In this document: positions 30,696-34,222 of the stretch, piece after piece
Layout of the letters: each line of letters opens with the position of its first letter
How positions within the stretch are numbered: position 1 is the stretch's first letter
Assembly (NCBI RefSeq): GCF_031624635.1
Contig: NZ_JAMQOQ010000002.1
Span: 248,001 to 312,000 of the forward strand
Origin: Halogeometricum sp. S3BR5-2
GTDB taxonomy: Archaea; Halobacteriota; Halobacteria; Halobacteriales; Haloferacaceae
Direction of reading: 5' to 3'
Length of the DNA stretch: 64,000 nt
The notes under the pieces: generated by a model
The model's database searches: none
Seen by the model: only the letters and a program-made list of their open reading frames with translations
What the model was told of the DNA's origin: nothing
Program-made: the position numbers and the translations under genes

Positions 30696-31493
30696 GTGGA
30701 CCTCGCTATCGACGACCGAGTCGCTATCGTCACCGGCGGGAGCAAGGGAATCGGGAAGGCCATCGCGGAGACGTTCGCCGCGGAGGGCGCCGACGTCTGC
30801 ATCTGCGCCCGCGGCGAAGACGAACTGGAAGGCGCGGCGGCCGAGATGGACGGCGACGTCCTCACCGCGCAGGTGGACGTGACCGACCCCGACGACGTGG
30901 AGGAACTGGTCGAGGAGACGGTAGAGGAGTTCGGCGGTATCGACGTGCTCGTGAACAACGCCGGCACGACCGGCAGTTTCGAGAAACTCGACGCGGTCCC
31001 CGAGGAGGAGTGGCGCACGGTCATCGACACGAACCTCTTCGGGACGATGCGGGTCACGAAGGCGGCGCTCCCCTACCTGAAAGAAGGCGACGGCGGCAGC
31101 GTCGTCAACGTCGCCTCCGACGCCGGCCTGATGCCGCACGACAAGATGCCGCAGTACAACGCCTCGAAGGCGGCGATAATCAACCTGACACAGAACCTCT
31201 CGAAGGCCTATCTGGGCGAGGGCGTCCGCGTGAACGCCGTCGCGCCGACGACGACGCGGACCCCCCTCGTGCAGGCGATGTTCGAGGAGATAGCCGACGA
31301 ACGGGACATCTCCGTCGAAGAGGCCGAACGGGCATTCTTGGAGGAGGAAAAGCCCGCCCTCCAGTTCGACCGGGTGGCCGAACCCGAGGAGGTGGCGCCC
31401 GTCGTCGCCTTCCTCGTCTCCGACCTCGCCTCCTACGTCTCCGGGTCGACCTACCGCGTGGACGGCGGCGGCGTCCCGACAATCGACGTCTGA
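30696..31493 (+). CDS. Short-chain dehydrogenase/reductase (FabG-like)
   Basis: An NAD(P)-dependent oxidoreductase, 265 aa. Cofactor loop GGSKGIGKAIAETF at the N-terminus, NNAGTTG (NNAG motif), NVASDAGLM with the catalytic Ser, and YNASKAA with the catalytic Tyr and Lys. The closing VASYVSGSTYRVDGGGVPT is a standard SDR ending. GTG start at 30696. The substrate is unknown; 3-oxoacyl reductase and sugar dehydrogenase are possibilities. No neighbour is metabolically linked. Confidence 0.92.
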   Translation: MDLAIDDRVAIVTGGSKGIGKAIAETFAAEGADVCICARGEDELEGAAAEMDGDVLTAQVDVTDPDDVEELVEETVEEFGGIDVLVNNAGTTGSFEKLDAVPEEEWRTVIDTNLFGTMRVTKAALPYLKEGDGGSVVNVASDAGLMPHDKMPQYNASKAAIINLTQNLSKAYLGEGVRVNAVAPTTTRTPLVQAMFEEIADERDISVEEAERAFLEEEKPALQFDRVAEPEEVAPVVAFLVSDLASYVSGSTYRVDGGGVPTIDV

Positions 31494-31637: not shown

Positions 31638-33005
31638 ATGACGAAGATGGGACGGCGGCGGTTCCTCGCGTCCGTCGGCGCGGGGGCGGTCGGTCTCGCC
31701 GCGGCGCCCGCCGTCGCGGCCGCCGACGCCGAGGAGGGGTTCGACCCCTCCGTCCACGGGTTCGGGTTCCGGAACTGGCGCGGGAGCGAACGGGCCTACC
31801 CCGGCCACGACCACCGCAAACTGGCCGACGAGGAGGTCAGAGAGTGCGTCCGCCTCGACTGGCGGGGACCGTTCGCCGACCTGTTCGGCACGCCCGTCGC
31901 CCGCCTGCCGGACGCCCTCGTCGGCCTCGTCGCCTCGCAGATTCGCGTCGCCGCCGCGCAGTTGTCCTCGACGGACGGCCACTGCTACGGGATGACGTTC
32001 GCCGCGCAGGAGTTCTTCGAGGACCCGAACGCGCTCCCCGATTCGGTCGAGCACGCGGCCGAACTTCGGACGCCGGAGGTGCCCGTGGCCCGCGACGAGG
32101 GCGGCACCGTCGGCACCCGCATCGACGAGTACCAGTCGACGCAGTTGCTCGACGTGCACTCGTGGCTTGGGCGACGCCGGATGCTTCGTCCGAAAGAGAT
32201 AGACCACGCCGCCGAACTCGCGGCGCTGACCGCGACGGTGGACGCCTTCGGGACGGCGGGCGTGACGCTCGTCGACACCGCCACGCGCCTCTCCCATCAG
32301 GTGCTCGTCTACGACTACGCCGAACGGGGGAACGCGACGCTGCTCGACGTGTACAACCCGAACGTCCCCGCGAGTTCCTACCGCCCGCGGTACCGCCGAC
32401 GGCTGAAGGTGATTCCGGGCGCCGACAGACCGCTCGCGAACCACGCCGAGTTCGACAGCCTCGTGTTCAACCGCTGGGACCGGGCCATCCGCGCCGACGC
32501 CGACGTGACCGCCCCGCGGCGGACCGACGACGGTGACTTCTCGCACCTGCTCGAACGCGCCGTCCGCTTCACCGTCTCCTCGCCGAACGTCGGCCTCTCC
32601 GTCGTCGCTCCCGACGGGACGGCCGTGGGGCGCAACCGCGCCGAGATGATGGACCGGAGTCGGAGCGACGTGTACGGCACGCGCTACCGCTACGACGCCC
32701 CCGCCGGCGACTACCGCGTCTCCGTCGTCGGCAAGCGGGCGGCGACGTACGAGTTGACCGCCGAGGCCGCCGGACTCGACGGGTCGCTTCTGGACGGCGC
32801 CGTGACCGCCGACATCGCCCCCGGCGAGGTGCGCGAGTACGTCGCGTCGGTTCCCGAAAGCGCCGACGAGGAGGGGAGCCTCCGCGAACGCGGGTCGATA
32901 TCGCCGGCGCGCGTCCGCCGGGCCGTCGACGTGCCCAACCTCCTCGCGGGCGCCGCCGGCGGCGCGGCCCTGTCGGCGTACGCGCTCCGTCGGCGGCGCG
33001 AGTGA
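31638..33005 (+). CDS. Tat-exported protein with papain-like Cys/His arrangement, 455 aa
   Basis: A Tat signal (MGRRRFLASVGAGAVGLAAAP) marks export. The core has DGHCYGMTFAAQEFF with Cys116, LSHQVLVYDYAERG with His220, and TLLDVYNPNVP with Asp237/Asn240. This is the order and spacing expected for a papain/transglutaminase-like cysteine hydrolase. A beta-rich second half follows (about residues 290-410), and the protein ends with a short hydrophobic helix LLAGAAGGAALSAYAL plus RRRRE, likely a membrane tail. Family not identified. The enzymatic reading is inference; I know no characterised homologue. Confidence 0.7.
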   Translation: MTKMGRRRFLASVGAGAVGLAAAPAVAAADAEEGFDPSVHGFGFRNWRGSERAYPGHDHRKLADEEVRECVRLDWRGPFADLFGTPVARLPDALVGLVASQIRVAAAQLSSTDGHCYGMTFAAQEFFEDPNALPDSVEHAAELRTPEVPVARDEGGTVGTRIDEYQSTQLLDVHSWLGRRRMLRPKEIDHAAELAALTATVDAFGTAGVTLVDTATRLSHQVLVYDYAERGNATLLDVYNPNVPASSYRPRYRRRLKVIPGADRPLANHAEFDSLVFNRWDRAIRADADVTAPRRTDDGDFSHLLERAVRFTVSSPNVGLSVVAPDGTAVGRNRAEMMDRSRSDVYGTRYRYDAPAGDYRVSVVGKRAATYELTAEAAGLDGSLLDGAVTADIAPGEVREYVASVPESADEEGSLRERGSISPARVRRAVDVPNLLAGAAGGAALSAYALRRRRE

Positions 33006-33034: not shown

Positions 33035-33619
33035 TCAGCCGAGTTCGACCGTCGTCTCGGCCGTCGGCGACGACAGTCCGGTCACGTTGTCGACGACGCG
33101 CGCCGCCAGCGCGTACGCCCCGGCGTCGAGGTCCGAGACGTCGAGTTCGAGCGGACTCTCCGCGAGCGTCTGGTCCCGGTCGAGCGTGATACGGACCCGC
33201 GTCTCCGCCTCGCGGACGGCGTCGCCCCCGCGCCGCAGTTCGACCCGCACGGTGGCGTCGGCCCGACCCGTCCCGCCGCCCGCCGGGTGGACGGGGTAGT
33301 CGTAGCTCACCGCCGCGATGAGCGTCCCGCCCGCCACGCGGTCGGTCTGTTCGGTCACCACGTCGCCGGCGCGCGACCACGACTCGACGGCGCGGACGAG
33401 GTTCACCTCCGGTCCCGCGACCCGGTCCCGGAGCGCGTCGAGTTCCGCGTTCAGCGACGCTATCTCCTCGTCCCGCGCCCGCAGTTTCGCCTCCAACTCG
33501 GCGATGCGGACGCGGCGGTCGGTCACGGCATCCGATTCGACGACGGTGTACCCGAGACACCCGCTCGTCGCTCCGAGGCCGCAGAGGCCGGCGAACGCGA
33601 GGAGTTCGCGTCGGTCCAT
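33035..33619 (-). CDS. Tat lipoprotein with coiled coil, unknown function, 194 aa
   Basis: MDRRELLAFAGLCGLGATSGC carries a twin-arginine-like signal and a lipobox (TSGC), so the protein should be lipid-anchored outside the membrane. The segment RVRIAELEAKLRARDEEIAS is a coiled coil. The C-terminal domain is beta-rich and resembles an immunoglobulin-like fold: LIAAVSYDYPVHPAGGG, ATVRVELRRGGDAV, LELDVSDLDAGAYALAARV. Start at the ATG at 33619. No enzyme signature. Confidence 0.75.
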   Translation of the reverse strand: MDRRELLAFAGLCGLGATSGCLGYTVVESDAVTDRRVRIAELEAKLRARDEEIASLNAELDALRDRVAGPEVNLVRAVESWSRAGDVVTEQTDRVAGGTLIAAVSYDYPVHPAGGGTGRADATVRVELRRGGDAVREAETRVRITLDRDQTLAESPLELDVSDLDAGAYALAARVVDNVTGLSSPTAETTVELG

Positions 33620-33721
33620 GCGGACCGTCGGGGGCGGGACGGCATAACGTCTCGCGCCGGCGACCGGGCGACCGGACGACCGACGGAGGTAAACGGCGCG
33701 CACGCCTACGGAGGCCGACAG

Positions 33722-34222
33722 ATGCCGACCGACGGACGCGACGTGAGACCGCGGGACCGCCACGGGTTCGACGAGACGAAGAGCCCCGTCGCCGCCGCCC
33801 TCGGAAAGTTCGTCCCGCAAGCCTTGGTTAGAAGAGGACTCTTCGTCGCCGTGCGGACCGACCGCGAGACGTACGCGCCCGGCGATCCGGTGGAACTCAC
33901 CGTCGTCATCGAGAACCGCCTCCCCCTCCCCGTGAGCGTGACGACGCCGACGCGCCGCCTGTGGGGGTGGACCGTCGACGGCGAGTTGGAGGCCAGCGAC
34001 GAACGCGTCTACGTCTCGGAGTCGCCCTCGAAGCTCACCTTCCGCGGCGGCGAGCGGAAGGTGCTCACGCGGACGTGGGACGGCCTGTTCAAACGCGTCG
34101 GCGCCGACGGTGCGGCGACCCGGTGGGTCGAACCCGACCCCGGCACCCACGAGGTGGGTGCGTACCTCGCCCTCGAGGGGAACCGGCCCGCCGACGCGAC
34201 GACGATTCGAATCGAGCGCTGA
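33722..34222 (+). CDS. Conserved haloarchaeal protein, Ig-like fold predicted, 166 aa
   Basis: After a charged N-terminus (MPTDGRDVRPRDRHGFDETK) there is an Ig-like beta sandwich with the strand pattern VRTDRETYAPGDPVELTVVI, LPLPVSVTTPTRRLWGWTVDG, ERKVLTRTWDGLF and GTHEVGAYLALEG. The YAPGDPVELTVVIEN type of strand is common to cell-surface beta-sandwich domains, but no signal peptide is seen, so it may be cytosolic. Function unknown. Confidence 0.7.
   Translation: MPTDGRDVRPRDRHGFDETKSPVAAALGKFVPQALVRRGLFVAVRTDRETYAPGDPVELTVVIENRLPLPVSVTTPTRRLWGWTVDGELEASDERVYVSESPSKLTFRGGERKVLTRTWDGLFKRVGADGAATRWVEPDPGTHEVGAYLALEGNRPADATTIRIER

Follow-up and report, generated by a model that had tools for sequence, protein, structure and literature searches.

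Papain and the C39 enzymes work by a common scheme of a cysteine, a histidine and an orienting residue, and in both a glutamine forms the oxyanion hole; in papain the three residues follow in the order Cys-His-Asn, the asparagine being Asn175. PMC10380794 describes papain-family (C1A) enzymes as widespread in Archaea, and the strings 'halobacteria' and 'haloarch' do not occur in it. According to PMC6085418, many haloarchaea make subtilisin-like extracellular proteases, the halolysins. In PMC4343526, the sole mention of 'cysteine protease' refers to sortases, and 'papain' and 'C39' are absent. Among the titles and abstract openings returned by searches of open-licence literature, none names the family described below, and its GHCYGM motif occurs in none of the open-licence papers searched. 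Because the papain family has already been described as widespread in Archaea, the new part of this work is the family represented in the window, that is, the 64,000-nucleotide stretch of Halogeometricum sp. S3BR5-2 DNA that was analysed, together with its architecture. If our reading is correct, a Tat-exported cysteine enzyme at the surface would differ in kind from the subtilisin-like proteases that haloarchaea release, and it would provide testable residues for proteins so far annotated as hypothetical, among them lectin-repeat proteins and large surface proteins of archaea.

Architecture of the gene product

The gene is a plus-strand open reading frame with an ATG start, and the motifs that an earlier note had read in its product are found where that note placed them: GHCYGM at residue 114 (with Cys116), SHQVLVYDY at 219 (His220), LLDVYNPN at 235 (Asp237), and RRRRE at 451. 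The features of the gene are listed in Table 1.

Table 1. Features of the gene for the papain-like protein and of its product; positions are those of the window
Feature	Position	Strand	Basis
Whole gene, predicted Tat-type exported papain-like protein, 455 aa	31638..33005	+	Motifs, homologues, alignment
Tat-like signal region, residues 1-30	31638..31727	+	RR conserved in A1/A2; pLDDT <50 at 1-31
Papain-like (C39-like) domain, about residues 31-290	31728..32507	+	Model, structure alignment, profile-profile comparison
FxPxxxGFGFxN motif, residues 35-46, with Asn46 at its end	31740..31775	+	Alignments A1 and broad set
Cys116, opening helix 116-128; proposed nucleophile	31983..31985	+	Model, conservation
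His220, proposed general base, on strand 218-230	32295..32297	+	Model, conservation, profile-profile comparison
Asp237, third residue of the earlier note; conserved in 2/43 only	32346..32348	+	A1 alignment
Asn240, proposed third residue, just past strand 233-239	32355..32357	+	Model, conservation, profile-profile comparison
Beta-sandwich toward the C terminus (residues ~300-412), alignable with DUF4425 and further beta-sandwich structures	32535..32873	+	Model, structure alignment
Weakly hydrophobic tail (432-450) then RRRRE, probable membrane anchor	32931..33002	+	Hydropathy

The N terminus, MTKMGRRRFLASVGAGAVGLAAAPAVAAA, is Tat-like, with a twin arginine followed by a hydrophobic stretch (GRRRFLASVGAGAVGLAAAPAVAAA) and a hydropathy maximum of 1.78 at residue 9. 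All 21 rows of alignment A2, in which start codons were picked by a rule favoring RR, keep the twin arginine. The Tat signal claimed earlier is supported as a Tat-like one. The A2 set comprises 21 loci minus L071, whose open frame is cut short, with a later start given to L066; the RR count is quoted on 21 rows. At the other end, where a short membrane tail with RRRRE had been proposed, the arginine cluster is present, while the best 19-residue Kyte-Doolittle mean is 1.24 (residues 432-450). As the tail is only mildly hydrophobic, a C-terminal membrane anchor is plausible rather than certain. In a subgroup of 13 rows (L031-L040 and L042-L044), the products as cut are 266 to 309 residues long and have neither the sandwich nor the tail.

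Conserved residues and a corrected candidate triad

Alignment A1 holds 43 haloarchaeal rows, drawn from 46 loci of the 49 matching genomes after removal of L041, L045, and L046, which have long open frames; three weak partial matches (G375, G383, and G057) lie outside the 46 loci. Cys116, His220, Tyr239, Pro241, and Asn242 are invariant in all 43 rows, in agreement with the first two members of the Cys116/His220/Asp237 order put forward in the earlier note. The third member had to be abandoned. Asp occurs at position 237 in only two rows, the window protein and its 89% identical orthologue from Halogeometricum pallidum, and Asp237 was on this ground rejected as the catalytic residue, whereas position 240 is Asp in 37 rows and Asn in six, and it is Asn240, not Asp237, that falls on the Asp of Peptidase_C39_2 domains. 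Since Cys116, His220, and position 240 are conserved and position 237 is not, we corrected the triad to Cys116-His220-Asn240. The idea that Asn240 compensates for Asp237 was also rejected, because the other four rows with Asn240 (L020, L021, L024, and L028) lack Asp at 237. Cys116 is the sole cysteine in 21 of the 43 rows and is therefore not kept for a disulphide. Against the H. pallidum copy, dN is 0.060 and dS 0.178, which points to purifying selection; these values, the spread of matches over 49 genomes, and the invariance of Cys116 and His220 show that the motifs are not a product of chance.

When 18 distant rows are included, giving a broad set of 61, every row has the Cys and the His, and position 240 is Asp in 54, Asn in six, and Glu in one; as these rows were cut out by a pattern requiring the Cys motif, the A1 count is the fair one. 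In a relative that this pattern missed (L090), viewed separately, the Cys, His, and Asp line up. The distant relative L088, which has CYPM and a Glu at the third position, may be a decayed copy. In front of the cysteine, Asn46 is invariant throughout the 43 rows of A1, and the broad set keeps it in 56 of 61 rows. Of the five rows lacking it, four (L083-L086) have, as judged by eye, an FxN lying several residues farther upstream, and the fifth has a gap. We propose that Asn46 may be an oxyanion or structural residue.

A probable papain-like fold

An AlphaFold model of the window protein, built with 20 relatives, has a mean pLDDT of 77.6, with values below 50 at residues 1-31, 49-52, 288-298, and 430-455; a model of the domain alone from a five-sequence alignment (pLDDT 48.8) was left unused. 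Cys116 opens a helix in the model, His220 sits within a strand, and Asn240 comes right after another, so that the predicted chain runs from a Cys-bearing helix to a sheet carrying His and Asn/Asp, as in the papain-like folds of clan CA type. Foldseek returned no match for the model in the PDB at E <= 0.001. When Foldseek's best 1000 chains were realigned with VIA-align, 37 reached Z >= 5 and none reached Z >= 8, and a Z below 8 may reflect a mere common arrangement. The best row for residues ~31-290 was 9jdd (Z 7.8, rmsd 4.4, 147 aligned residues), the domain of a T6SS effector, for which the title of the entry gives no fold. It was followed by the phytochelatin synthase Alr0975 (6tho; Z 6.8, rmsd 4.9, 151 aligned), IdeS (1y08; Z 6.8, rmsd 4.7, 173 aligned), a papain-like toxin (9l5u; Z 6.6, rmsd 3.7, 121 aligned), cathepsin K (5tdi; Z 6.6, rmsd 4.5, 140 aligned), CtaG variants (Z 6.3 and 5.7), and cathepsins S and L and cruzain (Z ~6). 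Overall, the rows over this stretch are largely papain-like enzymes from several families.

The likeness to papain and the cathepsins (C1A), IdeS, and Alr0975 is thus structural, with Z up to 6.8, and the window protein shares the Cys-His-Asn order of papain, whereas sequence identity to these enzymes in the aligned rows is only ~9-15%. The papain-like fold that the earlier note had supposed agrees with both the model and the VIA-align rows, although Foldseek alone was not significant. We accept it because several separate papain-like families recur among the rows, because the residues are placed as expected, and because the sequence profiles agree. A papain-like fold with Cys116, His220, and position 240 as the active-site residues is highly probable. 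The C-terminal stretch 300-412 aligned to 4qey (Z 6.3), 3u6g (Z 6.0), and 2lrg (Z 5.6); its resemblance to DUF4425 and similar beta-sandwiches is at the level of fold only, with 9-12% identity. Searches of PDB sequences gave no match with either the window protein (phmmer) or a profile of the seven-row alignment A3. The A1 profile matched 10 PDB sequences at E 0.21-1.1, among them LINE-1 endonuclease, ribosomal L13, and a phospholipase, which we take as chance.

Relation to Peptidase_C39_2

Searched against Pfam up to E 10, the window protein gave no match, and NCBIfam, PHROGs, and PADLOC gave no match above cut-off bearing on the domain. In a profile-profile comparison with 27 Peptidase_C39_2 (PF13529) domains, from which L094, L114, and L119 had been dropped because the cut-out missed the domain, the profile of the broad set reached a probability of 86.5 (P 4.6e-6 for one comparison). 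The trimmed profile scored 41.8; 100 column shuffles reached at most 17.5, and reversing the profile gave 12.4. In global mode, the broad profile gave a probability of 48.8%, and the profile of the haloarchaeal rows alone gave 1.1%. In the hhalign alignment, His220 falls on the C39_2 His and Asn240 on the C39_2 Asp; the Cys is out of register by four positions, with the Met of GHCYGM on the Met of the C39 helix.

Both the window protein and C39_2 place the His on a strand and an Asp/Asn past the next strand. However, the C39_2 set has CGPA or CSPT where the window protein has GHCYGM, and Asp where it has Asn240. In addition, the window family, unlike C39_2, carries FxPxxxGFxFxN some tens of residues before the Cys. 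Among 10 distant relatives scanned, L082 alone scores above the Pfam cut-off for Peptidase_C39_2 (29.7 bits versus 24), over a stretch that overlaps its match to the model of the window family; none of nine further proteins does so. PF13529, whose gathering cut-off the window protein does not reach, has no match anywhere in the window's genome and is rare among the Halobacteria sampled (1 of 59). Given the His/Asp profile match and L082 on the one hand, and the missing Pfam match and the Cys out of register on the other, we call the protein C39-like and not a member of PF13529. It is probably a member of a C39-like papain-type family missing from Pfam and NCBIfam.

Proposed mechanism

Given the fold class, the conservation, and the exported-type N terminus, all of which the computation demonstrates, our preferred reading, to which we give a probability of about 0.6, is that the protein belongs to an uncatalogued family and is a C39-like cysteine hydrolase, exported by Tat and anchored to the membrane on the outside of the cell; it is catalysis, hydrolysis, anchoring, and an external substrate that we infer. 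The protein would fold in the cytosol and then be exported by Tat, and its C-terminal tail would hold it at the outer face of the membrane, with the beta-sandwich serving as a possible spacer or binding module. Cys116, activated by His220, would attack a substrate outside the cell at an amide or acyl bond, while Asn240, replaced by Asp in most relatives, would orient His220. The earlier proposal of an extracellular cysteine hydrolase or acyltransferase is therefore supported as a predicted class by the fold, the invariant Cys and His, and the Tat-like signal. Within that class, we favor the hydrolysis of a peptide or amide outside the cell over transfer, and rate the chance that the protein acts on such a substrate as a peptidase or amidase at somewhat better than even.

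Neighboring gamma-glutamyltranspeptidase genes and a possible acyltransferase

The neighbors of the gene in the window are an SDR gene (30696-31493) on one side and, on the other, a lipoprotein-like gene on the minus strand. A gamma-glutamyltranspeptidase (GGT) gene stands ~46-239 bp upstream, on the same strand, in six of the eight closest genomes, though not in the window or in H. pallidum; GGT genes were located at L052:6101-7762 (PF01019), L053:6244-7896, and L122-L126, and in a seventh relative (L128) GGT lies ~3 kb from the gene. The SDR gene holds the place of GGT in the window, and the GGT of the window's genome is on another contig (C4). Haloarchaea use gamma-glutamylcysteine as a thiol. 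The adjacency would fit a papain-fold acyltransferase or transpeptidase of the transglutaminase, phytochelatin synthase, or BtrH kind, which joins rather than cuts, acting for example on surface proteins or gamma-glutamyl thiols, and the presence of Alr0975 among the best structural rows speaks for the same reading. However, the Alr0975 row ties with those of IdeS and the cathepsins, and GGT, which shows no signal peptide by eye, belongs to a larger block of synteny that also holds ABC and Dpp genes and is not found beside the gene in more distant loci. We regard the adjacency as synteny, a lead at most, and an acyltransferase as unlikely.

Distribution and wider family

Matches at E <= 1e-3 were found in 49 of 391 Halobacteria genomes, spread over 19 of 86 genera; 44 of the 49 have E <1e-20 and five are weak or partial. 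The window's genome carries one copy, its closest named relative is that of H. pallidum (89% identity), and the gene is of Halogeometricum type. Six plasmid records also match (four from Halobaculum and one each from Halorientalis and Natronorubrum), each annotated as a hypothetical protein, and the Halorientalis copy is preceded by a region that matches a beta-propeller model below threshold (DUF5122, 24 bits versus 27). Its presence in 49 of 391 genomes and on plasmids marks the gene as a patchy accessory gene.

When 392 genomes from the phylum were searched with A3, 17 had a match (E 1.5e-14 to 8.4e-4), 12 of them outside the window's class and all within the same phylum. Three of the relatives (L078-L080) are standalone proteins of 270-285 residues with, by eye, a Sec-like N terminus and a C-terminal hydrophobic segment, while L081, L082, L087, and L089 are long frames, cut by the ends of the loci, with CARDB, PKD, or NHL matches. 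In two genomes of the window's taxonomic family (L045 and L046), the domain ends a frame of 1036-1039 residues with an H-type lectin match, and a Haloferax larsenii plasmid encodes a domain 94% identical to that of L046. No signal peptide was seen by eye in the two lectin-match frames.

The domain is also present on two proteobacterial plasmid records. In Paraburkholderia caribensis, it sits between tandem repeats that we take, by eye, to be a lectin-like propeller; Pfam gives PapC_C and TIG_SUH only, with no single stretch passing. A Microvirga plasmid carries a further copy. In an ORF of a soil-bacterium plasmid (L047:1426-4821), for which PLSDB lists no gene, the domain is flanked by near-identical tandem repeats, and the N terminus of the frame may resemble aegerolysin. 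Three scans of viral contigs gave no confirmed relative, nor did phages yield a match with either of two distant domains as the query.

We tentatively suggest, as something a little short of an even bet, that these proteins form a distinct papain-fold family (FxPxxxGFxFxN...GxCxGM...HxVLxYxY...Y(D/N)PN) found in haloarchaea, where it is Tat-exported, in other classes of the phylum, where members are secreted and some are very large and multidomain, and in a few proteobacteria. Its members would form the active portion of surface proteins in which lectin-like or propeller modules are present as well, with the Asn of FxN in place of the oxyanion-hole Gln.

The same architectures could be read as those of a toxin-type or processing protease of a conflict system, with the lectin-fused and repeat-fused relatives as effectors. 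PMC3482391 describes papain-like domains as common in conflict systems, T6SS and CDI toxin domains are among the structural rows, and relatives occur on plasmids, at the C terminus of H-type-lectin proteins, and between the Paraburkholderia repeats. However, PADLOC gave no match and PHROGs no meaningful one, the haloarchaeal form is an exported-type protein with one catalytic-type domain, and, in the clusters compared, distant clades share no neighbor other than the gene itself and generic ABC ATPases, all of which makes this reading quite improbable. Least probable is a binding module at the surface, built on a papain fold that is no longer catalytic, for which one may cite L088, with its Glu at the third position and CYPM for CYGM, and the fact that no activity is known, since a binder would not need the Cys and His that are kept in 43 of 43 rows, with no other Cys in 21 of them.

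Other features of the locus

No bacterial promoter or terminator pattern was found at the locus; being bacterial, such patterns are uninformative for archaea. A small conserved ORF at 33725-34222 on the plus strand lies between the gene and the Dpp genes in several relatives. It has no Pfam match in the window and a sub-threshold DUF11 match in Halogeometricum limi, and a reading of it as a BsuPI-like proteinase inhibitor was dropped for want of a Pfam match. Convergent with the gene, 33038-33622 on the minus strand encodes a small protein that has a lipobox-like TSGC, matches coiled-coil models below threshold, and is 79% identical in H. limi.
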